Below, piece by piece: positions 1 to 15,871 of a stretch of DNA of 21,310 nt. The DNA comes from a virus. Numbering within the stretch: position 1 is the first letter of the stretch; every line of letters begins with the position of its first letter. Under the pieces are notes generated by a model. That model did not search any database and was not told the DNA's origin. It saw only the letters and a list, made by a program, of their open reading frames with translations. The DNA lies in IMG/VR virus record IMGVR_UViG_3300032116_001521, positions 1 to 21,310 of that record; one strand, written 5' to 3'. The position numbers and the translations under genes are program-made.

Positions 1-864
1 CTCTGATTGTGTCCTTTGATCGCAAATTTGATTTATATCATCACAGCAAGCACCAAGATCACCACCAGTATCACATGTTGAGCAATTTGTATTTTTACCT
101 TTATAATTTCCACCAGCCGCAGCACATTGTGCTGGAGTTATAACAGAGCAAGTACCGTCTGTTTTACAACATGCTCCAGTTTCTTCTGGTTGTGGGCATT
201 GATCACATGTGGTGTAATCTCCAAGATAAGAACCAGAACTACTCACACAAGCGGTAAATGATAAAATAGAACAACTACCATCTGAATAACAGCAAGCACC
301 TTTTGGAACAGAATATATGCAATCACAGTTAATTTCTGAACAGTTTAAATCTTCACCCATAAAAACACCACCAGCTGCATCACATTGAACTTTATTTAGT
401 TCAACACAGCCAGCTGTTGTGCAACATGGGCCAACACCAACAGCATCTTCACAACAATTTACATCGTTACATGATCCAGTATATCCAACACCGCCAAGAT
501 ATTCCTCACATAAAAGTCTGGTAAAATTGCTACCTAAACATATACCATCTTTACAGCAGGAAACAATTTCATAATCGCCACAGTAGTATGGACACAATCT
601 ATTTCCAAAATTTGTACCCTGTGGGTCATTTGCGTATGCTCCACATGTTATTCCCCTGTAGAATGTGCCAGCAAATGATTCACATTCAGTTGGATTGCTA
701 TTTTCAAGACATCTACCATTTGAACAGCAAATTCCAGTTATACCGCAGGAATTTATGCACGATTGAAGGGCATTAAATGTTCCAAATAATCTATCGCATT
801 GATCCTTTGTGACATATTCATTACAACCAAGAGTTCCATCAAAATTTGTATAACAGCAAGAACC
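1..864 (-). repeat. Seven tandem cysteine-rich repeats (coding)
   Basis: This codes for residues 301-588 of the partial adhesin. Each unit opens with G-x-C-C, then G-x-C, a single C about 8-9 residues later, a Gly-rich G-x-[FY] turn, and one or two closing cysteines. CC-to-CC spacings are 43, 57, 44, 44, 41 and 41 residues. The 57-residue unit carries an insertion ending in CPYYC. The last unit runs off the window, so the array is longer than seen. Units 5-7 are the most regular, for example GACCKTDGTC. The pattern suggests small disulfide-stabilised modules; I do not assign a named family. Confidence 0.85.
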
Positions 865-1764
865 AAAAGTATATGTTATTGGACAATTGTCATTATCAAC
901 ATCAAAACCTCTAGCAGCAACCGTCGCTGACCAGCTCTCACCTTGAGTTGTGGTTGTCAGGTTGACTATGGATTTTCCACAAGTTAAGTAGTTTTCACCA
1001 TTTTCAAAATACACATTTTCTGGAAAATACCATATATCTTCATTTTGGAAAATTAAAGTTATAGATACTGATTCATTTTTATTAAATGTTCCAGTGAATC
1101 CAGCAATACCGTTTGGAGTCGTTATATAGAATAATCCAGCATCATCAACATTTAGATATGTTGGTGTATCAAAAATGTTTCTAGATTGTACAAACTTAAT
1201 TTTTGATCTAGAATTTAATTTTGATTTTGTATTTCCCTTATCATCGTATACCAAGGTTCCACTGTTATAAACACCGTCATAAGTTACACCGATTGTAGTA
1301 CTTGAAATTTGATAATTTGTCTTTAAATATACCAAAGTATCAACATTCAAATTGGCAATATCTAACTCCGACTGAACTTCTGCCAATGTTGTGTTGAAGT
1401 AAACGAAGTTTTCATCTTCTGTCAAATATAAAGAACCAGTGGCCGAAAGACCCTTTACTTGCAACTCACCAGAAGAGTATGTATAGTATAAAGTTATACC
1501 GTCACCACTACTCACTCCAGCGATCAAAAATTCAGAAGTAGCACCTCTAAAATTTCCAGTTATTGTGCTTGTAGATCCATCAGAAAGATTTAAAATTATT
1601 CCAGTATTTGTTGGATTTGATGATAATATATAAACACCATATGGACCAGTTGCTCCGATTGGACCAGTATTTCCAGTACTTCCAGTTACACCCCTTGAAC
1701 CAGTTGCTCCACTTGGTCCTTTTGGTCCGATATATGAATGTGTTCCAATAGTGCTGCTTGACAT
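1..1764 (-). CDS. Collagen-like, cysteine-repeat tail adhesin (3' end missing)
   Basis: A minus-strand frame stays open from ATG at 1764 to the window edge (588 codons, no stop), so this is the N-terminal part of a larger protein. Residues 13-43 are eleven Gly-X-Y triplets rich in Thr and Pro, a collagen-like stalk as found in phage tail fibres. Residues about 44-300 have few cysteines and look beta-rich. From residue 301 the protein becomes cysteine-rich: CC pairs at 303, 346, 403, 447, 491, 532 and 573 open seven repeats of about 41-57 residues. By comparison with its two upstream paralogues I infer an Lcl_C/DUF1566-like domain after the missing end. It is the last of three tandem paralogues, 22 bases after the previous stop, the largest gap in the window. 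No clear Shine-Dalgarno is seen; the leader is almost pure A/T. Likely a virion surface or host-binding protein. The reading frame is certain; the role is inferred. Confidence 0.85.
   Translation of the reverse strand, partial: MSSSTIGTHSYIGPKGPSGATGSRGVTGSTGNTGPIGATGPYGVYILSSNPTNTGIILNLSDGSTSTITGNFRGATSEFLIAGVSSGDGITLYYTYSSGELQVKGLSATGSLYLTEDENFVYFNTTLAEVQSELDIANLNVDTLVYLKTNYQISSTTIGVTYDGVYNSGTLVYDDKGNTKSKLNSRSKIKFVQSRNIFDTPTYLNVDDAGLFYITTPNGIAGFTGTFNKNESVSITLIFQNEDIWYFPENVYFENGENYLTCGKSIVNLTTTTQGESWSATVAARGFDVDNDNCPITYTFGSCCYTNFDGTLGCNEYVTKDQCDRLFGTFNALQSCINSCGITGICCSNGRCLENSNPTECESFAGTFYRGITCGAYANDPQGTNFGNRLCPYYCGDYEIVSCCKDGICLGSNFTRLLCEEYLGGVGYTGSCNDVNCCEDAVGVGPCCTTAGCVELNKVQCDAAGGVFMGEDLNCSEINCDCIYSVPKGACCYSDGSCSILSFTACVSSSGSYLGDYTTCDQCPQPEETGACCKTDGTCSVITPAQCAAAGGNYKGKNTNCSTCDTGGDLGACCDDINQICDQRTQSE
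1636..1728 (-). repeat. Collagen-like Gly-X-Y tract (coding)
   Basis: Residues 13-43 of the partial adhesin have glycine at every third position, with T, P, A or K between. Such tracts form trimeric stalks in phage fibres (known for the class); trimerisation here is inferred. The DNA repeats near-identical TCC-AGT and ACC-AGT codon pairs on the plus strand. Confidence 0.9.
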
Positions 1765-1773
1765 AATTTTAAT

Positions 1774-1781
1774 TATTTATA
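1774..1781 (-). promoter_or_regulatory. Possible T4-type late promoter (TATAAATA)
   Basis: An exact match to the T4 late -10 element TATAAATA (minus strand) lies in the 22-base gap before the last adhesin gene, ending 9 bases from its ATG. The location in the largest intergenic gap is suggestive. However, an 8-mer of A and T is expected about five times per strand in 21 kb at roughly 70% A+T, and the start would leave almost no leader. Low confidence. Confidence 0.25.
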
Positions 1782-1786
1782 AGATA

Positions 1787-4700
1787 TTATGTAGTTCCAT
1801 CTGGACAACTTGGGCATGAATTATAGTTAAAATCATCCTCAGCTAGTTTTATAGAATAAGAAGAATCTTCATAAACTAAAATTGGAATTCTTCTTATTGG
1901 CCTCAATCTGGCTACTTTAGAATCTCTATTTTGTGATTCTACAAATCCATTTGAAAAATTTTGCGTTAGCATTTTTTCACCAGCACAAGCATTCATACTT
2001 AAATCGTATAATTTATCTTCTGTTAGATTAAAATCATTTTTTGTAAATCTAAATTTAGAATTAAATTCTCCACTTGGAGTTTCGAATATTTCATAGTATT
2101 TCTTATCCAAATGATTATTTACATTCCACTTGTGTAGAGTACACATACTGGAAGAACTCCAATATTTTTGTGCTGCAAACACATCATCACCATTTAATGC
2201 TATTGCAGTATTTAGTTCAGTTAGATTTCCATAAATATGGTTCAATTCAATGATACTTGGAACATACCAATCATTGTATCCATTTAATCCAGTTTGATTC
2301 AAAACAGAAATTTGCTTCATACAGCTGTCGGAATCAGTCATATTATCCCATAAAATTGCATATGAATTTTTAAATTCATTTTCATTTGTTTCAATGGTAT
2401 TTTCAATTGTATTATTTTGCCACTTACTATTTGGATAGGCTCCATTGCTATAGAATACGAATCTATCAAAAGCAAGTGCATCTACCCCAGTATTTGAATC
2501 GTTTTCAGCTAAATCTCTAAACCAAAAATAAGTATTTTCTTTGGAAGTTTCGTCATGCATTCTTGTGGTTAGAAGACCGTCAATCATGCATGTTGAAATT
2601 GGTTCCAAATTATATCCAAATTCACCATTACCTCTTACTCTTGATTCAGATATTCCCCAAGACAAATTCTTACTACCAGATATTTCAATATCTTCTGGGG
2701 CAACGATTATAGCCCAAAGCATATGAATTTGAGTTTCACCGTAAAATTGTTTTGCCAACTTAAGATAAGTTGAGGAGCCAACAAAACCTAAAGGTTCAAA
2801 CATTGAAATATTTGAAAGATGTTCTAATGAATATGAGAAAGTTCCATTTCTAATATCATATTCTAGGTTATCCTTGAACATGATTCCATCATCCCACTCA
2901 ACTGGAGTATTTAATGTTGCAGTTTGTCTGGCAACACCTTCATATGTTTGCATTATGAATGGTAAACCAGCTTTTAACAAGCAAGAATTTATTCTTTGCT
3001 TATCTTCTGTCAAAACTTCTGGATAGGTTCTTGTAAAGTACTTGATATTAAGTGATGATGGAGGAAGGGAAGTAGTGCCAAAAGTTACACCAGATTCACC
3101 AAAACAGTTTTTATATTTCCAAGTTGGATCTGTTGGCATAAATCCTCTTGGAAAATATCTACAAGAAAGTGGTTGACCTTCAGCAACCAATGGATTTGAA
3201 TAAACTGAACAGGGTGATGGTGCTCCAACAATACCAACAAGATATCCACCACCAACATAAGTCCCTATTGGTAAACATGGGATCAATTCTGAATATTTAC
3301 ACGCTTCAGATGAATTGAAATATTCACCTCTGAAGTTGTTTCCGCAGCAGGAATTTAGACCACAAACTTCACCTGGCCCTAAGAAAATTCCACCACTTTC
3401 TTTGCACTCTACTGGTGTATAACCATCGTTACATTCACTACCATCAGCTTTGCAGCATCCACCCCGTAAGGTATCTAAGCAATCTGGATCACAATCACCA
3501 TCACAGCTTTCTCCTGGATGAAATGAACTATTTGGTATGCTTTCACAAGCAAAACTTGTTATATCATCGTAGCATTTACCTTTTACGCAGCATTTTCCAG
3601 TTTGATCATCTAGAGGACAATAACTTGGGCAATTAAAATATCCCTCACCAATACTACCTCTCACTGGATGACAGACTTCATTTGGGTAAAAAATTCCATT
3701 ATATTTCAAACATAGTTCTTGTGAGGTGCTTATACATTCCCCGTTAACACAGCAAGCACCTTCTGCGAAACAATCACCACTTCCATTTTCTAAACTTGAA
3801 ACATATCTTTTAACGCATTCTACCGTGCTGAAACTTCCACCCATATCATAGCAATATTGCTTTGTAACATAATCTAAACATTTAATATCTGATACTGTCT
3901 CATTTAACGCACAGAAGCAGCATGAACCTATATTCCCAGTTGCACCTATTACTTGTGGAGTAAATATAGAATTTTTCTTAATAGTAACTGGTAAAAACTT
4001 ATAATCTAAATCGACACCACCACTACTTCCAATGAAGAGATTCGGTGTATATGTAAATCCATTTAAAGTATTGTTTATCTTTTCTTCAAATCTTTGTTTA
4101 TTTACATTATAGCCAATATCTGGAGAATATGAATAAACTGGAACTGCTATTCCAGTTGCACCAGTATAACCCACTATATCCTGGGTTAAATTTGCTAGTG
4201 TTTCATTAAAATTTTTAGTGTTGTATAATGTTATTCTTTCACCAGCTAATGGAATTCTTAAGGTCTGCGTTGTAGCATCCCAATAACTATTCGGAACTCC
4301 CTTTGCCTTTGTTGGTGTGTAGATATAAGCAATATTTCCAGTTTCACCAACTGGGAAAAAATTATAGGTTTTACCCTGAACTATAATTTGATTAGATGTT
4401 ACTGAAACTGATTCTATAGATCCTGTGGAACTTCTAAAAGTTATACCTTTAATTTTCAGATAATCAGTTTTTCCCAATTCTAATAAATTTTGAGATTTTT
4501 GAACTTCGTTGTAATGATATAATACGGATATTCCATTAGTAGTTACACCCTTAACAACAGCATACTGATTTTCATACTCTGAGGTTGCACCCTGAATATT
4601 AATTTGAATCGTTCCAGTATCACCTAAAAATATAGTTAAAATATTTGAAGATGTCGAAGTAAATCCAGTTATACCATAACCAGTATTTCCAGTGGCTCCA

Positions 4701-4825
4701 CGAACCAAAGGTCCAGTGATTCCAGTAGCACCAGTTATACCAACAGGGCCAGTTGGACCAGTAACACCAAAAACTCTTGTACTGATCGTTGAAAAGACAA
4801 AATTTGAGCTTCCTAAAATCGACAT
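1787..4825 (-). CDS. Collagen-like, cysteine-repeat, Lcl_C/DUF1566-like tail adhesin (1012 aa)
   Basis: Complete gene starting one base after the upstream stop. Residues 20-54 form a Gly-X-Y stalk. About 55-299 is a spacer with more GATG/GNTG motifs. Residues 300-556 are cysteine-rich, with four repeats opening at CC 302, 358, 412 and 457 plus a further CC at 493. A Gly-rich stretch follows (about 515-535), then a block with VAPEDIEISG near 708. Residues about 820-980 resemble the Lcl_C (DUF1566) domain: GYNDWYVPSIIELN at 849-862, YWSSSS at 888-893 and closing RLRPIRR near 973. That domain is known from the collagen-like adhesin Lcl of Legionella and belongs with C-type-lectin-like folds. A short tail ends in CPSCP. 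The likely role is a trimeric virion adhesin that binds a surface ligand through its C-terminal domain. Architecture is seen; Lcl_C membership and role are inferred. Confidence 0.85.
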   Translation of the reverse strand: MSILGSSNFVFSTISTRVFGVTGPTGPVGITGATGITGPLVRGATGNTGYGITGFTSTSSNILTIFLGDTGTIQINIQGATSEYENQYAVVKGVTTNGISVLYHYNEVQKSQNLLELGKTDYLKIKGITFRSSTGSIESVSVTSNQIIVQGKTYNFFPVGETGNIAYIYTPTKAKGVPNSYWDATTQTLRIPLAGERITLYNTKNFNETLANLTQDIVGYTGATGIAVPVYSYSPDIGYNVNKQRFEEKINNTLNGFTYTPNLFIGSSGGVDLDYKFLPVTIKKNSIFTPQVIGATGNIGSCCFCALNETVSDIKCLDYVTKQYCYDMGGSFSTVECVKRYVSSLENGSGDCFAEGACCVNGECISTSQELCLKYNGIFYPNEVCHPVRGSIGEGYFNCPSYCPLDDQTGKCCVKGKCYDDITSFACESIPNSSFHPGESCDGDCDPDCLDTLRGGCCKADGSECNDGYTPVECKESGGIFLGPGEVCGLNSCCGNNFRGEYFNSSEACKYSELIPCLPIGTYVGGGYLVGIVGAPSPCSVYSNPLVAEGQPLSCRYFPRGFMPTDPTWKYKNCFGESGVTFGTTSLPPSSLNIKYFTRTYPEVLTEDKQRINSCLLKAGLPFIMQTYEGVARQTATLNTPVEWDDGIMFKDNLEYDIRNGTFSYSLEHLSNISMFEPLGFVGSSTYLKLAKQFYGETQIHMLWAIIVAPEDIEISGSKNLSWGISESRVRGNGEFGYNLEPISTCMIDGLLTTRMHDETSKENTYFWFRDLAENDSNTGVDALAFDRFVFYSNGAYPNSKWQNNTIENTIETNENEFKNSYAILWDNMTDSDSCMKQISVLNQTGLNGYNDWYVPSIIELNHIYGNLTELNTAIALNGDDVFAAQKYWSSSSMCTLHKWNVNNHLDKKYYEIFETPSGEFNSKFRFTKNDFNLTEDKLYDLSMNACAGEKMLTQNFSNGFVESQNRDSKVARLRPIRRIPILVYEDSSYSIKLAEDDFNYNSCPSCPDGTT
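3335..3928 (-). repeat. Four cysteine-rich repeats (coding)
   Basis: This codes for residues 300-497 of the 1012-residue adhesin. Units open at CC 302, 358, 412 and 457. The first two match the first two units of the downstream paralogue in order. Both first units contain a YVTK segment followed by C and a G-x-F turn. Both second units carry an insertion that ends in CPxYC. This points to descent by duplication of an already assembled array. Confidence 0.8.
4664..4768 (-). repeat. Collagen-like Gly-X-Y tract (coding)
   Basis: Residues 20-54 of the 1012-residue adhesin have glycine at nearly every third position (20 to 38, then 43 to 49, then 51 and 54). There are two phase breaks, at the PLVR segment and at the YG step. 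Middle residues are mostly Thr, Pro and Ala. Confidence 0.88.
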
Positions 4826-4826
4826 A

Positions 4827-7667
4827 TTAGATATTTATGATTGGGAATCTCCAGAATTTATAATTATTTGAACCTGGTAGTGGATGTCTTCCATCACATC
4901 TTATTAATTTAATTGGTCTTATTTTTCTCTCACTTGTTCTTGTATATGCTACATCGAAAGAATAAGTAGAAGATCCAAAAGGAGTTGTAAATAAATCATA
5001 TGCCCAAGCTCTTGTTCCTATTGTTGTTGATGTTGCAAAACCATTTAATAAAGCTAGATCAAATGATCCAGTAGATGTCCAATAACTTCCAATAATTGGT
5101 TCAAATCCACTCAATAATAATGATGAATTTAAATTAAAATCAGTATCAGTTAAAACTAAATTAAATAAAAATCCCATCTCATCATGACTAGGAACAAACC
5201 AACTTGATTCTATATCTGATGTTGGTGGATTATCTATATTAAATTTTGTTATAGCATCGGCTAAACTAGTACTATTAGCATATATTGGATCTGGTGCATA
5301 TGCTGGATCAAAAGAAGAAATTCTAGCACCACATAGTCTACCAGTATTATATAACCCATAATTTCTAGTCCATGAACCATTTATAGATTGCTTGGGTGCA
5401 TTATAAATCCAGATGGCATAATCATTTATCGTTCTTACCGTAGCACAACTTCTGAAAGAATTTGAATATAAAGAAGCATAAGATGCTACAGATATAGTTG
5501 AATTATTTTCAAAAATATATCCTTCATCTGCATATGTTTTAGTTAAAATATCTTCTGTGTCTTTTGTTAATGTTATTGGATCATATAATGGACCCCAAGA
5601 AAGATTATTTTTACTCCATATAAAATTTTTATTTCCATTTATTTCTATATCTTCTTTTGCAACAATTATAATAAATGTATCAGAATTTCCACATATATTA
5701 GATTCAGGATACGCATTTACACCATATCCTGAATAATCTTTAAGAGATCTATAATTTCTCTTATAAAATCCACTAGCATTTAGAAAAATATTATTATAGC
5801 TATTTGTTAAGTCTGCTGGTGGCTTTCCAAATAAATTAACATCATAATTAAAATTATCAAAGACTTTATGTCCAGAAACTATATTAGAAAAATCAAAAAA
5901 GCCAGCAACGACACCACCAGCAAATTCATCTCCCTGTTTCAATTCCCCTATTCCAGGAACTCCCTGAAAGCATGGAATGTTATCAGGTGAACAATTAATT
6001 TCTTGACATGTTAAATTTGCACCAGAATAACTTTTATTATCTGCAAAACAATCACTATAAATAACATTATTTTCACATGTTATTCCTTTATCGCAACACG
6101 CACCATAACCATCCTGACAAATATATGCAAGTTGCCCATTATCAGTTCCAAAATTTTTAGTACATGTTCCATGAAAATACCATTGATTCAATATAGCATT
6201 AGATTTTGATGTTATTCCACCTGTTTGATTTACTCCAGTACAATAAGCACCCTGTTCCTGTTCAACAACAGTTTGGGAACATTGAAAGAATGAACTATTT
6301 GTAACTATTCCTCTATATGGATGCCAAATTGCATTTGGATCAATTGCCTTGCATTGACAAAATGTTAGATCTGCACTTGCATTACCATTGTAAAAACAGC
6401 AGAATCCTTGTGAAGAGCATAGAGATGAATCGCCTAAAGTTTTTCCATAATAAAAATATCCAGGACAATTTGATTTAAATGATTCAGACACAGATCCAAA
6501 ACAGCTAACTGGACAACATAATCCTTCTGCAAAGTTTACAGATGCATTAACATCAATCTCATCTTCAAAAGGATAACATGTTGTTGGTATTGTATCGTGA
6601 GTTGATGTTATATCTGCTTGTGCCGAATCATATTGAGCGGGGATTGCAAAATATCTTCCACCTAAAGATATCATGTTAATAACATTAAATTTTTGTTTTG
6701 CTGGACAAAAATATGAATCATTTTGCCAAACAATTCCAGATAAATCAAATCTTTCAAAAAAATTAGATGCAAATGTTATTCCATTTGATATATCTGATTC
6801 ATCTTCATAAGTAGCGTAGTAAATGTTTCCACCATAAGTAAAACCATTTGGAATGTGTAGAGACAATCCACTAGAGTGTGTGGTTAGTTCTGGTTTCTTT
6901 ATCAGGAAAGCAAAACCATTTATTCCATTATTTGTAGACAAATTTTGAGTGTATGGACTTATGTAAAAGACACTACCATCATCTGGATTTATTTTATAAC
7001 ATGCCAATGAATTGCTGAATATAGTTGGATTCGCAATTACCAAGCCTTCTTGAATATTTTTATTTTGTACTAATACAGCTTTTTCATAATCATCATAAAA
7101 TGATGCTGTAATTCCATATTGTTTCTGCCCAGTTCTATTGTAAAGTAAATTTCCAAGAGTTCCACCAGAAATTCCTATAAAGCCAAGATTTACTGCACTA
7201 TAATCCACAACAACTGTTTCTGGTGGATTTGAAGTGTTGTCGTAATATATTCTTAAAATATTTTCATAGTTTGACGATATACCTTTAAATGTCAGTATAT
7301 CAACTGGAAAATCGCCGTCATAAGTTTGATCAATTAAAGAATTTGATAAAACGCTAAAGGAGGCTAGACTTATTCCTTCCAGAGATATTTTAGAATACCC
7401 AGATATTCCAACTATTTCAGATTGGCTTAGTTTTGATGTGTTATCGCTATAGAAAAATTCAAAATAATTATCACTAAGTTTTATTATATTGACTAGTGTA
7501 GCACCAGTTGGTCCAGTTGGGCCAACAATACTTGGACCACAAGCACCAGCTGGACCCTGTGGTCCTTGATTTCCAGTTGGTCCAGTTATACCAATAAAAT
7601 TACGAAAAAAAGTCAAACCCCTATATGGGATATTACTTGAATCTGGTATGAATGGTTCATCTGCCAT
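4827..7667 (-). CDS. Collagen-like, cysteine-rich, Lcl_C/DUF1566-like tail adhesin (946 aa)
   Basis: First of the three tandem adhesins. Its ATG overlaps the stop of the 156-residue gene by one base (TAATG), so translation is probably coupled. Residues 26-55 are a Gly-X-Y stalk that includes a cysteine at 43. About 60-380 is a long spacer region with few cysteines. Residues 382-566 are cysteine-rich, with CC at 384, 423 and 524 and a degenerate unit near 476. A Gly-rich segment (GDEFAGGVVAG, about 579-589) precedes a block with VAKEDIEINGNKN at 669-681, closely matching the next gene. Residues about 819-924 resemble Lcl_C (DUF1566): SSWFVPSHDEM at 821-831, GSYWTS at 860-865, and KIRPIK at 915-920. 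No cleavable signal peptide is evident, as expected for a virion protein. Likely a host-binding fibre or appendage; target unknown. Confidence 0.83.
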   Translation of the reverse strand: MADEPFIPDSSNIPYRGLTFFRNFIGITGPTGNQGPQGPAGACGPSIVGPTGPTGATLVNIIKLSDNYFEFFYSDNTSKLSQSEIVGISGYSKISLEGISLASFSVLSNSLIDQTYDGDFPVDILTFKGISSNYENILRIYYDNTSNPPETVVVDYSAVNLGFIGISGGTLGNLLYNRTGQKQYGITASFYDDYEKAVLVQNKNIQEGLVIANPTIFSNSLACYKINPDDGSVFYISPYTQNLSTNNGINGFAFLIKKPELTTHSSGLSLHIPNGFTYGGNIYYATYEDESDISNGITFASNFFERFDLSGIVWQNDSYFCPAKQKFNVINMISLGGRYFAIPAQYDSAQADITSTHDTIPTTCYPFEDEIDVNASVNFAEGLCCPVSCFGSVSESFKSNCPGYFYYGKTLGDSSLCSSQGFCCFYNGNASADLTFCQCKAIDPNAIWHPYRGIVTNSSFFQCSQTVVEQEQGAYCTGVNQTGGITSKSNAILNQWYFHGTCTKNFGTDNGQLAYICQDGYGACCDKGITCENNVIYSDCFADNKSYSGANLTCQEINCSPDNIPCFQGVPGIGELKQGDEFAGGVVAGFFDFSNIVSGHKVFDNFNYDVNLFGKPPADLTNSYNNIFLNASGFYKRNYRSLKDYSGYGVNAYPESNICGNSDTFIIIVAKEDIEINGNKNFIWSKNNLSWGPLYDPITLTKDTEDILTKTYADEGYIFENNSTISVASYASLYSNSFRSCATVRTINDYAIWIYNAPKQSINGSWTRNYGLYNTGRLCGARISSFDPAYAPDPIYANSTSLADAITKFNIDNPPTSDIESSWFVPSHDEMGFLFNLVLTDTDFNLNSSLLLSGFEPIIGSYWTSTGSFDLALLNGFATSTTIGTRAWAYDLFTTPFGSSTYSFDVAYTRTSERKIRPIKLIRCDGRHPLPGSNNYKFWRFPIINI
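5970..6524 (-). repeat. Cysteine-rich repeat block, diverged (coding)
   Basis: This codes for residues 382-566 of the 946-residue adhesin. Three clear CC-opened units (384, 423, 524) and one degenerate unit (near 476) are visible, less regular than in the two downstream paralogues. The unit starting at 423 contains WHPYRG before its distal cysteine, matching CHPVRG in the second unit of the next paralogue, so the units still align between genes. Confidence 0.7.
7503..7592 (-). repeat. Collagen-like Gly-X-Y tract (coding)
   Basis: Residues 26-55 of the 946-residue adhesin run as GIT/GPT/GNQ/GPQ/GPA/GAC triplets, then a one-residue phase break at PSIV, then GPTGPTG. The cysteine at 43 sits inside the stalk and could cross-link chains of a trimer (inference). 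Confidence 0.9.
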
Positions 7668-8137
7668 TATGCTTGAACTTTATATCCTATGTAATTTACA
7701 ACGACACCAGTATAAGCACCATGTGGTGCTACCTGATAAACAGCTTTCACTATATGGTTCGAATCTGTAGGAGCCAATGACTGCAATTTACCAGCAGTTA
7801 ATCCACTTAAAAAGTAAATATCATGTCCACCAGCACCGCCTGTGCTCAAGTTAATGTTTCCAGTTAAACCAATAGAACCATACATGACTACATTTGCATT
7901 ACCACTTCCATCTATCGATTCAACCACACCAAAAACTTCAGCGGTAACGGCATTATCTGCTTTTGATTTTGTATATTTGCCACTGGCAACATCGTAATAA
8001 ATAGCATCACCCAAAGAGAGTCCAGTTGCTACAATGGCTGAAGATTGTAGTAAAAAGGAAAGTCTACTTCCACCATCTGATGAACTAACGACTGTGTTTG
8101 ATGATTTAATATTTGAACTGGTACTACAGGATGGCAT
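7667..8137 (-). CDS. Small virion protein matching a repeated fibre domain (156 aa)
   Basis: Complete small gene between the 769-residue fibre and the first adhesin. Residues 1-30 are Ser-rich. Residues about 36-152 have the order LSLGDAIYYD, then AEVFGVVESIDGSGNA, then a Gly-rich turn, IYFLSGLTAGKL, and a closing VVVNYIGY strand. The same order occurs in the fibre upstream (GMPVRVY, AEVMGIV, VYFLD, ILPYRG), and its second copy shares DGSGDA. I infer one stand-alone copy of that beta-rich domain. It may decorate, cap or attach a fibre. A capsid-type decoration protein is an alternative, but the neighbours favour a tail location. An AGGA ribosome site lies 7 bases before ATG, and the gap to the upstream stop is 12 bases. 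Function unproven. Confidence 0.8.
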   Translation of the reverse strand: MPSCSTSSNIKSSNTVVSSSDGGSRLSFLLQSSAIVATGLSLGDAIYYDVASGKYTKSKADNAVTAEVFGVVESIDGSGNANVVMYGSIGLTGNINLSTGGAGGHDIYFLSGLTAGKLQSLAPTDSNHIVKAVYQVAPHGAYTGVVVNYIGYKVQA

Positions 8138-8144
8138 ATTTTTT

Positions 8145-8148
8145 TCCT
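8145..8148 (-). promoter_or_regulatory. Ribosome binding site (AGGA)
   Basis: AGGA on the minus strand sits 7 bases before the ATG at 8137 and supports that start. It lies in the 12-base gap between the fibre and the 156-residue gene. Confidence 0.6.
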
Positions 8149-8149
8149 A

Positions 8150-10459
8150 TTATATTGGATAATCTGCGTCGGCTACAAAGTGATAATAGATTTTATCATA
8201 TGGTACATTTCCAGCAACAGCACTAATTCTAACACTATTTATTCTTGCAGTTGCAGTTATTCTATCTCCAGATGTGTAAGTTCTCTCAGCACCGCCATAT
8301 CCATATGTTCCATTACATAATATCAATTCTCTATTTGCTGTTTTATTATAGGCTTCCGATGAAGATCCCGAATATGGAGAATAAATTGTTACGCTTGGAG
8401 TTGTGCGCATCTCAATATTCAGCTCATGCACCTTCTCCGAATAATTTGGAATTGGAACCATAATTGGAGTTGACTCCGCAACATCAAATGTTGAAATCAT
8501 GGTGGGAGATCCAACTCTTTCAGATCTAGAATATGTTGAATAATAGAACTGCCTACAATATCTCAATTGCTCGTCATAGGTTTTGAAATTATGAGCCTGA
8601 ATATTTCCATCCACAGCTCCAGCATTTACAGAAGCAAGAGAGATGAAAACATTGGTTGCTATCGATTCCGAAGCAGCTCTTGCTTGAGTTATCAGTGGTA
8701 TTAAATCAAAACCAATTTCACAGTAATCATTTTCAATTGGTGTTGCTGAAGATGTCAAACCACTAATTGCAACATTAAAATCATATCTATCCCAGTTTGT
8801 TCCGAGACTTGCAGTTCCCAACACTTTATAATCCAATAGTGTAGTTCCAGCATATCTTGCAAGATAAACATTGACATCATTATATGAAGAGTGTGAAGTC
8901 TTACCATAAAATGATACTGCTAATTTTTTACCATCAAAGACTTTACAACCTGGAACAACATGCCCAACCATAACATGATTATAGCTTCCATATGATGGAT
9001 ATTCGTCGTTTATCAAACCTGGATATGTTATTCCAGTTGCACCAAGTGCTTTTACATCAATGTAGTAATTTGGATTACCTTCAATTTCATTTTGATAATC
9101 GGCAAATGATTGTCTAATTATATAATAATTTTTTGTAGATGAATCTCCACTTAGTCCATCGTGTCTTCTCCACAAGTCGGCAAAAACAACATTTCCAGTA
9201 GTTGTATATTGATTTTCTCTTCCAATTTCAGATCTTTGCCATACTTCAAAATTACCATTGACAAGCATATTATCGACAGTATTATCGACATATGTTGCTT
9301 CACCACTAGTGGATCTTAGTGATACATTACTCTGACCACCAACTGAACGAATATTAATAACAGCAGAATCTGAAGAATCATCATATATTGTTGCGATTGG
9401 GAGATATGTTCCAGGATCTCCACCAGTGTTTATCCATTGTGGATTTGCAGCTTTACTGGTTAAATCTAAACTATCTGTAAGATATATTCCACCATTTGTT
9501 TCAATGTCATACACATTTGTATATCCAGACAATTGAATTGTTAATATGGCATCACCACTGCCGTCTATAGTTTTATTAATTATAACACCAACAATATAAT
9601 TTAATTCATTGGTCAAGTTCATACTATGGAACCATCCACCATAGTTTACCCTATTTCCAGTTTCTAATGCCCCAGAAGCAGCATAAGATGGACTATAGGA
9701 GAAAATATCACCAACTTCGATATAATTAAATTCTGATGATGCATTGTAAGCAGAGTCAATGATTATTACTATTTGGTTTGAGCCACTAGATCCATAACTT
9801 GTTAAATCTGAATTTAAATAGTTTCCTCTATATGGTAGAATTATTGCCGCATTTCCAGAAAGACCAAGAAGAAGTGGCTTTGACACATAACCAGTTACTG
9901 CTGGCTCCTCATCGGTAATTTTTCCTTGATTGGTTGGATCTAAGAAATAGACACAACCAGCACTTAATCCTTTACCATAACTGGTTGTAAAATCGCCCTC
10001 GATTTTTCCAGCAACAGTTACAAAGGAATAAGTATTTCCAACAGAAGTTACTATACCCATAACCTCTGCATTCTCTGGATTGTTTGCTCTTGCTGCTGTA
10101 TATCCTATTACTGATCCACTTTGGTATACTCTTACTGGCATACCAAAAGTATATCCAGCACCAGCAGTCATTCCATAAATTTGAACATTTACAGAGCCAA
10201 CATTTACTTGTCCATTGAATGTTACAGTATTGTTGAATATTAATGGAGATTTTATAATTCCAGAAGTTCCACCAATTGAAAGAGTAAGCAAACCACTTGT
10301 ATCAGTGGTGGCTAGAATCCCATCACCACTTGTAGCACCATAAACCTTTAAAAGATTTAATTTACCGATGATATCGGTATTTTCTTTTAAAAACCAATCA
10401 TAAAAAGAATTCGTAGAATTTAATGTTGTTATGCTATATGTGTTTAATTCAACACCCAT
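8150..10459 (-). CDS. Tail fibre / receptor-binding protein (769 aa)
   Basis: Residues 1-97 are a probable attachment region with short GGT/GAT elements. Residues 98-212 and 245-372 look like two diverged copies of one beta-rich domain, the first with AEVMGIV, VYFLD and SKPLLLG motifs. Residues 397-615 match the jelly-roll type segment common in phage fibres, starting NMLVNGNFEVWQR and continuing to FADLWRR at 426-432. Near 631-642, QLRYCRQFYYST resembles the lCqRYY signature of such fibre ends, followed by MRTTPSV at 684-690. These signatures are known from many phage tail fibre C-termini that bind surface glycans; the ligand here is unknown. The start is supported by AGGAG 8 bases before ATG, and only 3 bases separate it from the previous gene. 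Confident as a fibre, less so on the ligand. Confidence 0.83.
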   Translation of the reverse strand: MGVELNTYSITTLNSTNSFYDWFLKENTDIIGKLNLLKVYGATSGDGILATTDTSGLLTLSIGGTSGIIKSPLIFNNTVTFNGQVNVGSVNVQIYGMTAGAGYTFGMPVRVYQSGSVIGYTAARANNPENAEVMGIVTSVGNTYSFVTVAGKIEGDFTTSYGKGLSAGCVYFLDPTNQGKITDEEPAVTGYVSKPLLLGLSGNAAIILPYRGNYLNSDLTSYGSSGSNQIVIIIDSAYNASSEFNYIEVGDIFSYSPSYAASGALETGNRVNYGGWFHSMNLTNELNYIVGVIINKTIDGSGDAILTIQLSGYTNVYDIETNGGIYLTDSLDLTSKAANPQWINTGGDPGTYLPIATIYDDSSDSAVINIRSVGGQSNVSLRSTSGEATYVDNTVDNMLVNGNFEVWQRSEIGRENQYTTTGNVVFADLWRRHDGLSGDSSTKNYYIIRQSFADYQNEIEGNPNYYIDVKALGATGITYPGLINDEYPSYGSYNHVMVGHVVPGCKVFDGKKLAVSFYGKTSHSSYNDVNVYLARYAGTTLLDYKVLGTASLGTNWDRYDFNVAISGLTSSATPIENDYCEIGFDLIPLITQARAASESIATNVFISLASVNAGAVDGNIQAHNFKTYDEQLRYCRQFYYSTYSRSERVGSPTMISTFDVAESTPIMVPIPNYSEKVHELNIEMRTTPSVTIYSPYSGSSSEAYNKTANRELILCNGTYGYGGAERTYTSGDRITATARINSVRISAVAGNVPYDKIYYHFVADADYPI
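9344..10168 (-). repeat. Tandem duplicated fibre domain (two diverged copies, coding)
   Basis: Residues 98-212 (bases 10168-9824) and 245-372 (bases 9727-9344) of the fibre share an order of motifs: an opening G-[DM] turn, a [IV]-x-G-[IV]-[IV] strand, a GxIYLT or GCVYFLD strand, and a closing AI-I or AVINIR strand. Identity by eye is low, so duplication is an inference. A third likely copy is the separate 156-residue gene downstream. Confidence 0.5.
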
Positions 10460-10462
10460 TTA

Positions 10463-11140
10463 TTATGCTCCTGAAAGTGGAATCCCGTTCATCCATTCAT
10501 ATCCATTGCTAGTTACTGTCAATATTGGTTTGATTGCTGTTAGATTTCCAGTATTTGTAAATTCAATAATTGAATTTTTAATTCTATAAGCACCTGGAGA
10601 ACTTGTATTTACAAATCCACCAGAATTATCAAATAATAATTGATCCTCAAAGGCAGAGATGTCCGACGAATCAATTGTTAAACCTATAAAAGTTCCAATT
10701 GTTGATGAATTTATTTGAATGGATAAGTCAAACTGTGTATTATTATGTACCCAGTAACATAAACCACTTGGGTGGGTATAATAATACCATCCAACTAAAA
10801 ATCTAATACCGCCAGATATAACTTGAACTTGTGCTGGATTCAAAGGTACAGCACCGTTCCATAGTATGGATTCTACAGTTTCATCTGGATTGGCCTGTAA
10901 ATATGAAGCTAGTACTGGAGTCCAGAAAGAAAACATATAATTTGATAATGTTAAATTTTTCTGAAAATTATCTTGAATTTCATTCAATTCAGCTGCTTGA
11001 ACAGCCATTCCAGGTGTAAAACCAATTAAAATATAATTTTTATCTAGTTTTTCAAATTCAGTGAATCTAGAATAATATGGTTCTCTTCCTAAAGATGTTT
11101 TTTGTGTTCCTGTTACTTGTCCGAAATAAGTAGTAGCCAT
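10463..11140 (-). CDS. Baseplate/fibre-linking protein with PGxxVQAxELNxIQ motif (225 aa)
   Basis: Residues 34-60 contain KNYILIGFTPGMAVQAAELN followed by EIQDNFQ. This resembles the short N-terminal signature of phage proteins of the DUF4815-like group, where an F-x-PG-x-x-VQA-x-ELN segment opens proteins that sit between baseplate and fibres. The rest (about 70-225) has no motif I recognise and looks beta-rich, with aromatic residues around 117-130 (WYYYTHPSGLCYWV). It begins with a one-base overlap (TAATG) after the gp8-like gene, and the fibre follows 3 bases later. I infer a role in seating the fibre on the wedge, comparable in position to T4 gp9/gp10, without claiming homology to them. 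A purine-rich GAGAAA precedes the ATG. Confidence 0.65.
   Translation of the reverse strand: MATTYFGQVTGTQKTSLGREPYYSRFTEFEKLDKNYILIGFTPGMAVQAAELNEIQDNFQKNLTLSNYMFSFWTPVLASYLQANPDETVESILWNGAVPLNPAQVQVISGGIRFLVGWYYYTHPSGLCYWVHNNTQFDLSIQINSSTIGTFIGLTIDSSDISAFEDQLLFDNSGGFVNTSSPGAYRIKNSIIEFTNTGNLTAIKPILTVTSNGYEWMNGIPLSGA
10468..10472 (-). promoter_or_regulatory. Ribosome binding site (AGGAG)
   Basis: AGGAG on the minus strand lies 8 bases before the ATG at 10459, inside the last codons of the upstream gene. It is the strongest Shine-Dalgarno in the window and fixes the fibre start. Confidence 0.75.
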
Positions 11141-12942
11141 TAAATTTCTCTTATTATATTTATTCTAATTATTCTAGATAAATTTCCATTAGTATCTGCA
11201 ATTTTTATATTTGCTGGAGTTTTTACAACTTGTAGAACTTTTCCGCTATATTGTTTTAGATCTGGTTCTTTAATTATTCTATTGATGAAAAACTTCTCAT
11301 TATCAGTATCAATTACATATTGGGAATTCAAAACATTTTCATGATTACTTCCAATCAATGTAACAAATGATTCTTCAGATGTTGGTGTTGCATCTGTTGT
11401 TATATTTGCGGAAACAATGGTGGTTGGTGATGGTGGTATAGTTGGAACTAAGGCTGCTAATTGGGTTAGATCTGTTTGATCTGCAATCGTTGGAACATAA
11501 ACTTTTCCAGTTACTGGTGCTTTAGTAATAGTACCAGTTCCTATATCATCCTCATAAATAACTGCTGCTTCTATAGAATTAGATGCAATTTTTGTAACAT
11601 TTGGGGGCAACTCAGATCCAGATACGATATAATCGCCAGATGGAAGTTTTTGTAGTGGATTGGACACCAATCCATATAAATTGAATTCTGTTGGATATGG
11701 GACTCCAGCCAGATCTAGTTCCTGAATTTCTATTCTAGAATCGATTAAAACATTTTTACATTCCAATACATCGTATGGGTCAACATTTAAACCATCAATA
11801 ATATCAAGATTTAGTTCTATACTTGATAAAATTTGTGATTTTATATTTGATGCAAAAATATTAGATGAAATATCTAAAATTATATCTTTATAATCTTTAC
11901 CGTTCTCAATAACTTCAATTCCATTAATTATAAATTTTCCATTTATATTTCTATAAGTTTTTAATCTTATTCTTGCCCCAGATCCAGTTAAGGAAATAAC
12001 TGTAAATTCTGGATTTTCTTGATTTACAACAAGTTGACTTAATGGTATATCGCTTAAATTAAGCGATGCAGATATTATAGCACCATCGTCTGGACCATTA
12101 TTTGCTATCTCATATAATGCATAGAATGCAGAGGATGATGGAATTCTATTGTCAGCTATTAATTGCCCTATCTCATCAAATTTATCTAAAATTGATATAT
12201 TTTCTACTATATCTCCAGTGCTTCCATAAAAAACTGGCTGTAGTGTGTTATTTTCATCAAAAAGATAATAACACTCACCACAAGAAGATTCTACAGTTTT
12301 ATATCTTTCACCCTTGATATAATCCTCAAATGTTCCACCAGTAATTGCTATTTTTTTGTTATCTTTGAAATACAGAGAACAATAACCACTAGTATCAATT
12401 GAGTCGTCGCAGAAACTTTCAATATTTTGCTGCTCTGTACTGAATGAGGAAAGTTTAAAATCTTCAAATGAAATAATTGGAATCCAATTAGTTTTAACAA
12501 ATCTTAAATAGTCTCCAGTTATTCTATAAACTGGCAACCAGGTATACCCATCTGGATATTTTTTTATTCCATAGGCATGATTTGGAATATATGTTGAGGC
12601 AATTGTTCCAGATAGATCTTTTCTATTGAATTCATTATTTGATAAACAAATATAAACATTTCCATTTTCTTTATTCCAAACATAGAAATCAGAATTTGAT
12701 GTAGAAAATGCTTTCCATGGATAATAAACACCGCCACTTTTCCATGTTATATTTGGTATGACTCCAACAGCATCATTTCTAGTGACTCTCTTTGAAAAAA
12801 TTGAATTATTCCATAAATCTATACCAGCCTCATTGCTACCAGTTTCAATATAGTTGTCAGTTTTTCCTATAAGAAAATGAAGATTTTCTGTTTTTCCTAT
12901 ACTAGATAAATATTTTTTAATGTCTTTTTGTTTTTTTGCCAT
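11140..12942 (-). CDS. gp8: gp8-type baseplate wedge protein, extended (600 aa)
   Basis: T4 gp8 is a wedge subunit that bridges the gp7 and gp10 layers. Here residues 22-31 (HFLIGKTDNY), a conserved KR-x-x-R/D segment near 51-57, ITWKSGGVYY near 65-74, NVYICLSNN at 95-103 and DGYTWLPVYRI at 131-141 follow the order typical of gp8-like proteins. FNLYGLVSNPL at 420-430 resembles their later conserved segment. At 600 residues it is almost twice the length of T4 gp8 (334), with extra sequence in the middle and at the C-terminus. I choose the ATG at 12942 (MAKKQK), which has CGGAT just upstream and does not overlap the previous gene. An in-frame ATG at 12972 would add 10 residues and overlap that gene by 19 bases. 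A CGEC pair occurs at 221-224. Confidence 0.72.
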   Translation of the reverse strand: MAKKQKDIKKYLSSIGKTENLHFLIGKTDNYIETGSNEAGIDLWNNSIFSKRVTRNDAVGVIPNITWKSGGVYYPWKAFSTSNSDFYVWNKENGNVYICLSNNEFNRKDLSGTIASTYIPNHAYGIKKYPDGYTWLPVYRITGDYLRFVKTNWIPIISFEDFKLSSFSTEQQNIESFCDDSIDTSGYCSLYFKDNKKIAITGGTFEDYIKGERYKTVESSCGECYYLFDENNTLQPVFYGSTGDIVENISILDKFDEIGQLIADNRIPSSSAFYALYEIANNGPDDGAIISASLNLSDIPLSQLVVNQENPEFTVISLTGSGARIRLKTYRNINGKFIINGIEVIENGKDYKDIILDISSNIFASNIKSQILSSIELNLDIIDGLNVDPYDVLECKNVLIDSRIEIQELDLAGVPYPTEFNLYGLVSNPLQKLPSGDYIVSGSELPPNVTKIASNSIEAAVIYEDDIGTGTITKAPVTGKVYVPTIADQTDLTQLAALVPTIPPSPTTIVSANITTDATPTSEESFVTLIGSNHENVLNSQYVIDTDNEKFFINRIIKEPDLKQYSGKVLQVVKTPANIKIADTNGNLSRIIRINIIREI

Positions 12943-12953
12943 TTTTATATCCG

Positions 12954-14153
12954 TTATGATGCAGGGCCGCAATTGTCACAACTCAATATTTCATTTGGGC
13001 TGGTAAAACCAGAATCATAGCATAAAGTTAAAAATTCTTGAATATTTATATCTAGGAATGTATTGGCTGAAAATGTTTGCGCCCAAGTTGGAAATAGATG
13101 AGTTGGGCCAGTAAATCCAGAATAAGAAACACCATCGCAACCAACACAGAAAGTTAATCCAGAATAACTAAAACCATTAACCGATCCTAGATTTGGATAG
13201 GTTGATCCTAAAACATATGGTGAGTAATTTTTCAATAGTGGATATTCACAAACGAATAAATCTTCATCACTTGGCGCATTTGGGATATAATCTGAAAGTT
13301 GTTTTCCAAATATTAACTTAATTCCTGCTGGATGATTTGATTTTCTATACAGATTTTCTAAATCATTATTATTTGAATAATTTGGACCAGCATATAAGAT
13401 ATAAGAAAAATCATGAAACCAATCCGAATCCTGCAATTTACTTCCATTTAAATAGCTACCAGCTAAATCTCCGCGAGTTAGATAATCTCCAGTAATTCCA
13501 GTTGTGATATTGAAGTTAAAGTTTGGAGAATAAAATCTACCACCATTTAATCTTAGTATTTTTTCCTTTGGAATTTCTATTTGTATATCTTCTTCATCTA
13601 TTAAAAACAAAGTTGTTAATAGTTTTCTAGCTGCTTCTTCTGAACCTTTTCTATGATAAAAATTCTTTCTTATACCTATTAAAAAATTCTCTAATTGATT
13701 TCTAGCAACATTCAAATCAGTAGTAAATAAATCATCAAATGATCCAGCATACATTTTGTAGATATTTTGAATCAAATTTGATTTAGTTTTTCTAATATCA
13801 ATTAGATCAAGTAAATTTCTAGATAGTGAATAATTTGCCCCACTAGGTGAATCACAATAAAGCCAATCATAGTATTTTTGTAAAAAATCATATATTGTTA
13901 ATGTTGATTGTAATTGACCAGCTCTATTATTTTTTTCTACTATAACCCAATTTGGAATAAATTTTGTAATATCAAACAGTGTTCCACAATTCTCAGCTGA
14001 ATTAAAATTGAAACCTGTAGATAAGGATTGACCCAATTCAAAATTATCAGATTCGCTTGAAATTGTATCAATCTCATTTGATATTAAAGTAACAAGCGCA
14101 TTTATAGCGTGATTGTTATTTGTTATTCCAGCATATGGGATAAATGGTATCAT
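12954..14153 (-). CDS. gp7/gpI-type baseplate wedge protein (399 aa)
   Basis: It starts with an ATGA overlap at the gp6 stop, indicating coupled translation. Residues 88-98 (YDFLQKYYDWL) and 165-183 (FYHRKGSEEAARKLLTTLF) fit the yyxWL and FYxxKGxExx signatures of a myophage wedge family. P2 gpI, Mu gp48 and part of T4 gp7 carry a related segment. Residues 246-283 (FHDFSYILYAG, then HPAGIKLIFG) fit the second signature of the T4-like marine-phage members. Position directly after gp6 and before gp8 agrees with a gp7 role in the wedge. It is far shorter than T4 gp7 (1032 residues). The C-terminal third is Gly/Ser/aromatic rich with CVGC at 336-339 and ends CDNCGPAS, paired cysteines not typical of the family. 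Wedge role likely; the exact gp7 equivalence is inferred. Confidence 0.72.
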   Translation of the reverse strand: MIPFIPYAGITNNNHAINALVTLISNEIDTISSESDNFELGQSLSTGFNFNSAENCGTLFDITKFIPNWVIVEKNNRAGQLQSTLTIYDFLQKYYDWLYCDSPSGANYSLSRNLLDLIDIRKTKSNLIQNIYKMYAGSFDDLFTTDLNVARNQLENFLIGIRKNFYHRKGSEEAARKLLTTLFLIDEEDIQIEIPKEKILRLNGGRFYSPNFNFNITTGITGDYLTRGDLAGSYLNGSKLQDSDWFHDFSYILYAGPNYSNNNDLENLYRKSNHPAGIKLIFGKQLSDYIPNAPSDEDLFVCEYPLLKNYSPYVLGSTYPNLGSVNGFSYSGLTFCVGCDGVSYSGFTGPTHLFPTWAQTFSANTFLDINIQEFLTLCYDSGFTSPNEILSCDNCGPAS

Positions 14154-15871
14154 ATAAGTTCAACTCTGTCTGGAGCTATTGTATATTTAATATTAGATGA
14201 TGATTTGAAAAAATTATTTTTAAAATTAAAGAATAAATTTACAGGAGAGTTTGATATATTGTATAATTCCAAAATTCCAGAAGCTATATTAATTCTTCCA
14301 TAATTTTTTGAAGCATCGTATGCAGTAGTTGATGGATATTGTATAAATGTTCTTAAATCTATAAATCCATCAATCGCTTGATTTGTTGCTTTAAAAACTC
14401 TCAGATATACTGTTTGTGAAAATTTATCTTGAAAATTATTTGAAATTGTATTTAAACCTTCATTTATTTCAATTTCATTGTTGTCAAAATTTAAAATTGT
14501 TGAAGCTATGTTTGGCGTAACGATTCCACTAAATTTAATTTTTAATGTCGCTGAATTTATTGGAAAAACACTAATTAAAGCATCTTCAACTCCTCTAAGA
14601 TCAATATTATATTGATTCGTATAAGAATAATTTTGTACTAAATAATCTCTTATATTTTTTATTAGTGTATTTTTTTCTTGTTGTGTTAAATTTGAATTTG
14701 TTGGAACAAATTTAACATCATAACTGATTAATCTTGATTCACTCTCAACAAATTCAGGCAATATAGACAAAGTACATTTAGTTTTTAAATAAGCAACAAG
14801 ATCTAGTATATCTTCTCTTGGTAAAATGTCAGTGGTAACAAATACTCTACCATATTTTGGTGGGAAAAATTCTTCACCACCAAATGCATTGAAGTTAGAT
14901 TTAGTAACATTATATCCTTTAGATTTTAAATATTCGGAAGAAATTGCTAAAAAATCATCTTTAGTCACAGCTCTATTTTGTGCTGCAAAGAATTTTGGAG
15001 CTATAAATTTGTAATATGATAAATCTGGAGAATCTAATCCACCAGAAGAACCAGAAATAACTTCAATTGCACTATATGTTAGTTCTGTTGTTGAGAATGA
15101 TACTATATTATTTCCAGCAGATCCAGAAGACACCAAATAACTTATACGAATTCTATAATCTTCTTCTATTTTATTGCCTAAAGTATTTTCTTTTCCAAAT
15201 TGAATTTCAAAACCAGTATCGAATCTTTCAACAAAATATATTGTTTGACTTAGATTCTCTGTACTATCACCAATATTATCAAGTTCAGTCCATAGTCTCC
15301 ATACACCATCACCAACATCTACTTCAACTGTAAGAGTATTAATATCAACATTGGAATCGCCTATGAAATAACTTTGATTTTCAAAATCAAATGCTGATGT
15401 AATATCTTTTTCTTTTACTAATTGCCTTGCTTGATACAATTTAATATTTGTTATAAACTCGCTACCAGATTCTGCTTCAACATAATCTTCAAGGGTATAA
15501 AATGAATAATTTATACCAGTTGAGGATGTTCCAGTAAATCTTGTATATTTTGGTATCGCCACAACACCACCAATTTGTATTATAGCCATTGCGGAAGTTT
15601 TAGTGGGTATCTTAACACCTAAAGGTTTTAGTAGAGATACCACAGATTCTTCTCTCTGTGCTGAATCTAAAAACATTTCATTTGCTAAGACATTTGAATA
15701 CATAGCATAATAAAGAGTATTGTATGCCAGTAAGCTAACAACACTGTTCATGACTGAACCAGCATAATTAAAATCTTTTATCTCATCTTGATTTTGTAGA
15801 TAATTTAGTAGATTTCTTTTTATTTCAATATAATCTAAACTACCCAAATTGATTTCGTTATTATTTGCCAT
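14150..15871 (-). CDS. gp6: gp6 baseplate wedge protein (gpJ-like)
   Basis: gp6 forms the continuous ring of wedge subunits around the baseplate hub; it belongs to the Baseplate J family. Residues 35-92 carry the hallmark sequence: NYAGSVMNSVVSLLAYNT, then ANEMFLDSA and SVVSLLKPLGVKIP. Residues about 290-320 (FIAPKFFAAQNRAVTKDDF) show the second conserved segment with the AV-T-DDF motif, followed by a YGRVFVT strand near 341-347. At 573 residues it is somewhat shorter than T4 gp6 (660). It overlaps the gp25 stop by one base (TAATG) and the next gene by four bases (ATGA), so gp25, gp6 and the gp7-type protein are almost certainly co-translated. No cysteines are seen, unlike several neighbours. 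High confidence. Confidence 0.93.
   Translation of the reverse strand: MANNNEINLGSLDYIEIKRNLLNYLQNQDEIKDFNYAGSVMNSVVSLLAYNTLYYAMYSNVLANEMFLDSAQREESVVSLLKPLGVKIPTKTSAMAIIQIGGVVAIPKYTRFTGTSSTGINYSFYTLEDYVEAESGSEFITNIKLYQARQLVKEKDITSAFDFENQSYFIGDSNVDINTLTVEVDVGDGVWRLWTELDNIGDSTENLSQTIYFVERFDTGFEIQFGKENTLGNKIEEDYRIRISYLVSSGSAGNNIVSFSTTELTYSAIEVISGSSGGLDSPDLSYYKFIAPKFFAAQNRAVTKDDFLAISSEYLKSKGYNVTKSNFNAFGGEEFFPPKYGRVFVTTDILPREDILDLVAYLKTKCTLSILPEFVESESRLISYDVKFVPTNSNLTQQEKNTLIKNIRDYLVQNYSYTNQYNIDLRGVEDALISVFPINSATLKIKFSGIVTPNIASTILNFDNNEIEINEGLNTISNNFQDKFSQTVYLRVFKATNQAIDGFIDLRTFIQYPSTTAYDASKNYGRINIASGILELYNISNSPVNLFFNFKNNFFKSSSNIKYTIAPDRVELI

Follow-up and report, generated by a model that had tools for sequence, protein, structure and literature searches.

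The window, by which we mean the whole 21,310-bp viral fragment analysed here (uncultivated virus; IMG/VR record IMGVR_UViG_3300032116_001521, positions 1 to 21,310), has every major open reading frame (ORF) on the minus strand and contains three tandem ORFs, A, B and C, that lie between T4-type baseplate-wedge genes and, in longer near-identical contigs, neck genes. A fourth gene, D, follows C in those contigs. Judged from their sequences, A, B, C and D probably serve an uncultivated lineage of T4-like phages as its host-recognition fibres, with C varying and A, B and D staying constant. We prefer, and hold to be likely, a reading in which the cluster is a set of several host-recognition fibres, one of which varies in evolution.

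Gene A (4827-7667, minus strand, as are all window features below; 946 aa) encodes a collagen-like stalk, a spacer, a Cys-rich region and an Lcl_C-type C-terminal module, and it has orthologues in 13 lineages. Its Gly-X-Y run, with one break, occupies residues 26-55 (7503-7592), the Cys-rich region with CC units residues 384-566 (5970-6519), and the module residues 572-923 (4899-5954), which begins with L..GDxYAGG and closes with an Lcl_C end (SSW.PSHDE ... YWTSTG ... RPI.LIRCDG). Gene B (1787-4825; 1012 aa) repeats this plan, with a Gly-X-Y run containing a break at residues 20-46 (4688-4768), a spacer, Cys repeats at residues 302-517 (3275-3922; CC at 302, 358, 412, 457 and 493) and an Lcl_C core at residues 832-976 (1898-2332), which matches Pfam PF07603 with E=3.8e-6, below the curated cut-off. 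Gene C is open at position 1, and the window holds the first 588 of its 1645 residues (1-1764): a collagen stalk of 11 Gly-X-Y triplets at residues 13-45 (1630-1728), a spacer and, from residue 303 to 588 (1-858), Cys units of the GACCxxDGxC type. An earlier note on this DNA had placed the three ORFs exactly at these positions and had described the adhesin-type order of Gly-X-Y run, spacer and Cys-rich region, and both observations are borne out. The longest Gly-X-Y runs comprise 7 triplets in A, 7 in B and 11 in C, compared with a maximum of 4-5 in shuffled proteins, and the Pfam Collagen family (PF01391) matches all three, each time below its cut-off. Cysteines number 28 in A, 40 in B and 78 in full-length C (3.0-4.7% of residues, against a proteome median of 1.1%).

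The segments of these proteins were compared with one another by profile, with unrelated or cross-type segments serving as controls (E=0.08-0.95). Regular-expression counting of Cys units against shuffles skips overlapping units and is a poor test for B to D, and profile comparison was used in its place. By this comparison the Cys regions of A, B and C are homologous to one another (B-C E=2.7e-11, A-B 2.3e-5, A-C 7e-5). Homology also links the C-terminal parts of A, B and D (about 1e-5), the C tail is unrelated to the other segments, and no homology is detectable by profile among the spacers of A, B and C, the best value being 0.002 for B-C over a short stretch. The three genes had been called tandem paralogues; this stands for the Cys regions and not detectably for the spacers, and the set is ancient, with only C1/C2 and one B/B2 pair duplicated later. 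Profile searches of the PDB returned a BclA collagen match (0.0025) and a weak match of A to 4eps (0.036); the Cys unit gave nothing useful there.

The Lcl_C-like end (DUF1566, PF07603) that had been ascribed to both complete genes is real in A and B and is probably present in D. A profile built from 47 Lcl_C sequences of Pseudomonadota genomes was compared with the profile of each segment; it supersedes an earlier profile of 6 sequences, which had given a weak match to A with hhalign. The 13 A orthologues match the larger profile with E=9.5e-7 over the whole domain (W.PS.DE, YWTST, AW, RPIR), B with E=2.6e-6 and D weakly with 5e-4, whereas the C tail and seven non-tip control segments gave no match (0.13-0.87). 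The motif L..GDxYAGG, or a close variant of it, precedes the domain in 13 of 13 A orthologues, two of which also show weak Pfam Lcl_C matches.

The sequence past position 1 was read from near-identical IMG/VR contigs (99.99% identity over the overlap). The earlier note had asked of this region whether the third gene also ends in Lcl_C and whether a fourth copy follows, and neither is the case: complete C (1645 aa; remainder at L011:10001-14938) has a tail that lacks Lcl_C, and the next gene, D (L011:14935-16392; 485 aa), is Cys-rich with a probable Lcl_C domain and has no collagen. Downstream of D lie p166, a Cys-rich protein of 166 aa (L011:16389-16889; G001:39728-40228), and gp13, gp14, gp15, gp16, gp17 and a sheath-type gp18. 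The set thus lies between a gp8-type wedge gene and gp13, in the position of T4 gp9-gp12, as the earlier note had suggested; in the T4 gene order, gp9-gp12 and wac stand there. None of A to D has a Pfam or PHROG match to gp9, gp10, gp11 or gp12. The terminase is closest to those of Kyanoviridae (52-54% identity).

Seven scans of viral contigs yielded A orthologues in 13 uncultivated T4-like lineages that form two groups, one of 30-33% GC (the window, G004, G005, G006, G009 and G012) and one of 36-40% GC (G011 and G013-G018); a more distant contig, G007, has D and p166 only. Wherever a contig is long enough, the order p156-A-B-C(-C2)-D-p166-gp13 is fixed, p156 being the 156-aa protein immediately upstream of A, and longer contigs and relatives extend it to gp25-gp6-gp7-gp8-p225-p769-p156-A-B-C(-C2)-D-p166-gp13..gp17. 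The fibre genes are closely packed into a single block, and additional Cys-rich genes stand between C and D in G017. A, B, C and D are ancient, for every lineage with enough contig has a separate orthologue of each of them in unchanged order, and they do not form a recently amplified array, apart from the C1/C2 and B/B2 duplications of the second group. The protein p166 always stands between D and gp13, carries CxxCxC and further cysteines with a weak zinc-finger match, is more conserved among relatives than A to D (56-81% identity) and has no homologue in the phage records; it is possibly an assembly factor for the Cys-rich fibres. When 50,697 deposited phage records were searched with tblastn, neither A, B and D nor the A and C of one phage of the second group found a match, and C of the window matched through its collagen only.

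The division between constant and variable genes emerges from comparisons among these relatives. Between the window and G004, identity is 46% for A, 53% for B, 42% for C and 51% for D, values similar to those of the gp6-gp8 wedge proteins (46-60%). Along C, windowed identity is 51-68% over residues 1-500 and mostly 9-45% over the remainder; in the second group, C1 is 79-93% identical across the first 500 residues and 13-55% after residue 700 in comparisons with G013. No comparable fall in conservation occurs along A, B or D. The alignments indicate that C consists of a conserved platform of approximately 500 aa and a hypervariable, repeat-rich tail. In G013, G014 and G015, the lengths of A (1048-1050 aa), B (1087-1106 aa) and D (564-568 aa) are nearly the same, and C1 measures, in that order, 1695 aa (27 Cys units), 1922 aa (36 units) and 2569 aa (42 units); C1 of G015 contains 328 cysteines. 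C1 and C2 share 77-80% of their first 350 residues and 44-48% overall, so that C has been duplicated in these phages of the second group, where the duplicated C genes carry 21-42 Cys units. A similar B/B2 duplication lies at the contig end of G011.

Domain content also differs by lineage, with Lcl_C in B of the first group and VWA or FG-GAP in relatives. VWA domains above the cut-off occur in G013 in B (E=4.2e-5) and in C1 (E=9.5e-13) (L099:16352-19648 and L099:11219-16306), with the intact DxSxS metal-site motif DVSGS in C1; the domain lies just under the cut-off in B of G015 and was not found in C1 of G014, a close relative of G013. A Cys-rich protein of 1692 aa in the fibre cluster of G017 (30106-35184; L110:10106-15184) contains seven FG-GAP repeats (E=2e-127).

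The Cys unit has relatives in cells. With a pair of C units (GACC[KY][TS]DG...) as the query and one genome per species scanned, 33 cellular loci were found, 29 of them labelled Planctomycetota (mostly Phycisphaerae), two unclassified bacteria, one a Myxococcales metagenome-assembled genome (MAG) and one Limnohabitans. The Limnohabitans locus (L076) was discarded as an antisense chance frame within an unrelated gene. The best cellular match is 65% identical over 34 aa (tblastn), C and the cellular loci share the tandem pattern GxCCxxDGxC...C...GGxYxG...C, and the cellular arrays reach 22 units. Outside these phages, the Cys repeats found are nearly confined to planctomycete proteins. Many of the cellular proteins start with sequences that, judged by eye, resemble signal peptides, and these N-termini, together with the arrays of up to 22 units, suggest that the Cys unit is an extracellular, disulfide-stabilised module. 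One Phycisphaerae protein (L073) combines a single GACC unit with what looks, again by eye, like a domain of the formylglycine-generating-enzyme type, a domain that is also C-type-lectin-like.

According to the mechanism that we propose, the short collagen stretch would hold each fibre as a trimer, with its N-terminus attached to the baseplate. The Cys units would form a rigid shaft, stabilised by disulfides or metal and possibly oxidised after lysis, and a surface glycan or protein would be bound by the distal Lcl_C domain (C-type-lectin-like in Lcl) or by another tip. C would track changes of the host surface through replacement of its tail and gain or loss of Cys units, and A, B and D would keep constant contacts; the change would be evolutionary, occurring between lineages, and not a programmed switch. 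We infer from the genes and their relatives that the proteins belong to the virion, form trimers and disulfides, bind receptors and share the work between constant and variable fibres. Several points weigh against this reading. The Lcl_C matches fall under the Pfam curated cut-off, with none for A itself, and the profile match of D is weak; the collagen stretches, at 7-11 triplets, are very short; and the AlphaFold models are too poor to assign a fold (pLDDT 27 for B from 4 sequences and 35 for the C-terminal module of A from 13 sequences). Moreover, the part of C that would contact a host is deduced from its variability, and the fibre role from the genes.

The same genes could serve a structural purpose. 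A to D would then organise other fibres as baseplate-periphery or whisker proteins comparable to T4 gp9-gp11 or wac; Lcl_C would mainly trimerise, and the receptor-binding protein would lie elsewhere. The fixed order, the one-to-one orthology and the ordinary level of divergence seen in A, B and D would fit such a role, DUF1566 could promote trimer formation according to the Lcl paper (PMC11162425), and the upstream 769-aa protein is another fibre candidate. However, receptor-binding proteins show the kind of turnover seen here in the C tail, the number of Cys units and the domains present (Lcl_C, VWA, FG-GAP), and we regard a purely structural role as unlikely. We assign a similarly low probability to the idea that the Cys-rich regions, instead of forming a shaft, are modules for metal binding or redox assembly, with p166 as a zinc or iron protein responsible for their loading or folding. 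The reducing cytoplasm in which T4-like phages assemble is in favour of this idea, as is p166 itself, always beside the cluster, conserved at 56-81%, and with its CxxCxC motif and weak zinc-finger match; but the often signal-peptide-like N-termini of the cellular relatives point to a setting in which disulfides are usual, and unit numbers from a few to 42 are unlike those of a catalytic or metal site. A receptor set that can switch or is actively diversified, based on a diversity-generating retroelement (DGR) or on invertible fibre genes, is very improbable. DUF1566/Lcl_C is the most frequent Pfam domain among DGR target genes (PMC6642488) and is a DGR target in Bacteroides phages (PMC8143477). 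Nevertheless, reverse transcriptase (PF00078) was absent from 18 contigs, one of them 123 kb long, and resolvase (PF00239) from 10, tyrosine recombinases not having been searched for, and no self-repeat of at least 60 bp occurred in G001, G002 or G006, although the contigs are incomplete genomes and a distant element is possible. Contigs of this phage also differ by only 0-2 bases over up to 34 kb, with a single base in a 34-kb overlap that includes the fibre genes. The switchable set proposed in the earlier note thus finds no footing in the contigs tested; the multi-receptor set that it offered as the other option would be a plausible reading.

It could also be supposed that the phage infects Planctomycetota and took its Cys repeats from such hosts. 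The 29 of 33 cellular loci in this phylum and the match of 65% over 34 aa favour such an origin, which we nonetheless consider quite unlikely: p166, the marker of the lineage, was not found in 392 Planctomycetota genomes (a validated profile search that also gave no match in 398 Pseudomonadota genomes), phage GC is 30-40% compared with 51-70% at the cellular loci, the unit is present in a Myxococcales MAG too, and transfer and convergence are not distinguishable. A planctomycete host is, on the sequences compared, possible but unsupported. A broader construction would be a previously undescribed modular receptor-binding platform, in which fixed, collagen-stalked disulfide-repeat fibres carry distal modules like those of the extracellular matrix (lectin-like Lcl_C, metal-site VWA, FG-GAP propeller), with phage lineages exchanging the modules and reach tuned by gain and loss of Cys units; these units would be shared with Planctomycetota possibly because such bacteria are present or past hosts. 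We put this forward as a tentative possibility; the host-recognition cluster with one variable fibre is still the reading that we prefer.

Such clusters have precedents. In pelagimyophages and cyanomyophages, the host-recognition cluster (HRC) is described as an island that runs from a baseplate gene standing in for gp7 to the neck gene gp14 and holds fibre genes, with a structural operon of proteins that have triple-collagen and lectin-like domains (PMC7029224). The present cluster resembles it in belonging to T4-like phages, in its position as a fibre island between baseplate-wedge and neck genes and in its collagen and lectin-like domains; unlike the HRC, which the same account calls non-syntenic and hypervariable (PMC7029224), it has a fixed A-B-C-D scaffold with variation confined to C, the Cys units and some domains. 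GACC-type Cys repeats, Lcl_C, VWA and FG-GAP belong to the cluster described here and go without mention in the portions of that account concerned with the HRC (PMC7029224). Lcl of Legionella is trimeric and has a collagen region followed by a C-type-lectin-like, glycan-binding Lcl_C end (PMC11162425), and the phage proteins share with it (NF046116) the N-terminal collagen stretch and the C-terminal Lcl_C/DUF1566 (PMC11162425). However, Lcl is a bacterial surface protein and not a phage tail gene, the Cys repeats and large spacer of the phage proteins are not described in it, and the phage proteins score 11.6-14 bits against the NF046116 equivalog cut-off of 500. The receptors of Bacteroides uniformis phages are likewise phage proteins with DUF1566, and there they govern host tropism (PMC8143477); those phages are siphophages whose receptors are diversified by a DGR (PMC8143477), and no DGR was found here. 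The eBAP3 fibres of extracellular contractile injection systems (eCIS), which derive from phage tails and were reported in 2026, combine collagen-like shafts with a TNFR-like domain and with beta-propellers, and according to their authors such flexible engagement has not yet been described in the phage literature (PMC12923769). They belong to injection systems and have other anchor domains (PMC12923769); the likeness drawn here is one of described architecture. The Planctomycetota GACCxxDGxC repeat proteins have the same Cys unit, up to 65% identical and in arrays of up to 22, but they are cellular, and the collagen/Lcl_C scaffold of the phage was not seen in them. Because the position and content of the HRC, phage DUF1566 receptors and eCIS collagen fibres have already been described, we consider the A-D combination to be a new variant of the T4-like host-recognition cluster. 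The earlier note knew of no described phage system with this exact architecture, and A, B and D indeed have no match in the 50,697 phage records.

If the preferred reading is true, one protein of the set can alter its contact surface and the others remain constant, and aquatic T4-like phages without isolates gain a defined, recurring receptor-binding cluster. Constant and variable fibres could then be separated by sequence, so that the evolution of host range would become traceable in metagenomes. Tail proteins with up to 328 cysteines pose a testable question, namely how a virus whose assembly takes place in a reducing cytoplasm makes disulfide-rich fibres. Furthermore, a phage counterpart to the collagen-plus-Cys-rich fibres of eCIS would join two fields.

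From high to low coordinates, the window encodes a 1612-aa hub-type protein; gp25-type (15871-16254), gp6-type (14150-15871; phrog_219, E=1.2e-71), gp7-position (12954-14153; PF23786 weak, phrog_17744) and gp8-type (11140-12972; phrog_438, E=8e-20) baseplate-wedge proteins; a 225-aa protein (10463-11140; weak DUF4815, phrog_358); a 769-aa putative tail or fibre protein that is a conserved neighbour (8150-10459); p156 (7667-8137), always immediately upstream of A; and then A, B and C. The 156-aa and 769-aa proteins (7667-10459) have a domain in common (31% over 80 aa), which points to an old duplication beside the fibre cluster. The 22-bp gap between B and C contains the octamer TATAAATA (1774-1781), 10 nt before the start of C, which resembles the T4 late-promoter consensus. 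In several relatives, octamers similar to TATAAATA stand before C, B2 or D. Because the octamer is not enriched across the window as a whole, its reading as a late promoter of C is only suggestive; sigma-70-like sites occur at chance level.

In the hub region of the second group, very Cys-rich proteins (up to 195 Cys) stand between two halves that match the 1612-aa protein of the window (G013 33884-38038; G018 7989-12848; G011 5764-8715; G017 6094-9242). The same phage also carries a sugar-modification cluster (G002 1-7000, L029) with a C-methyltransferase, an epimerase and glycosyltransferases; sugar clusters occur in other T4-like phages too, which may alter the surface glycans of their hosts.

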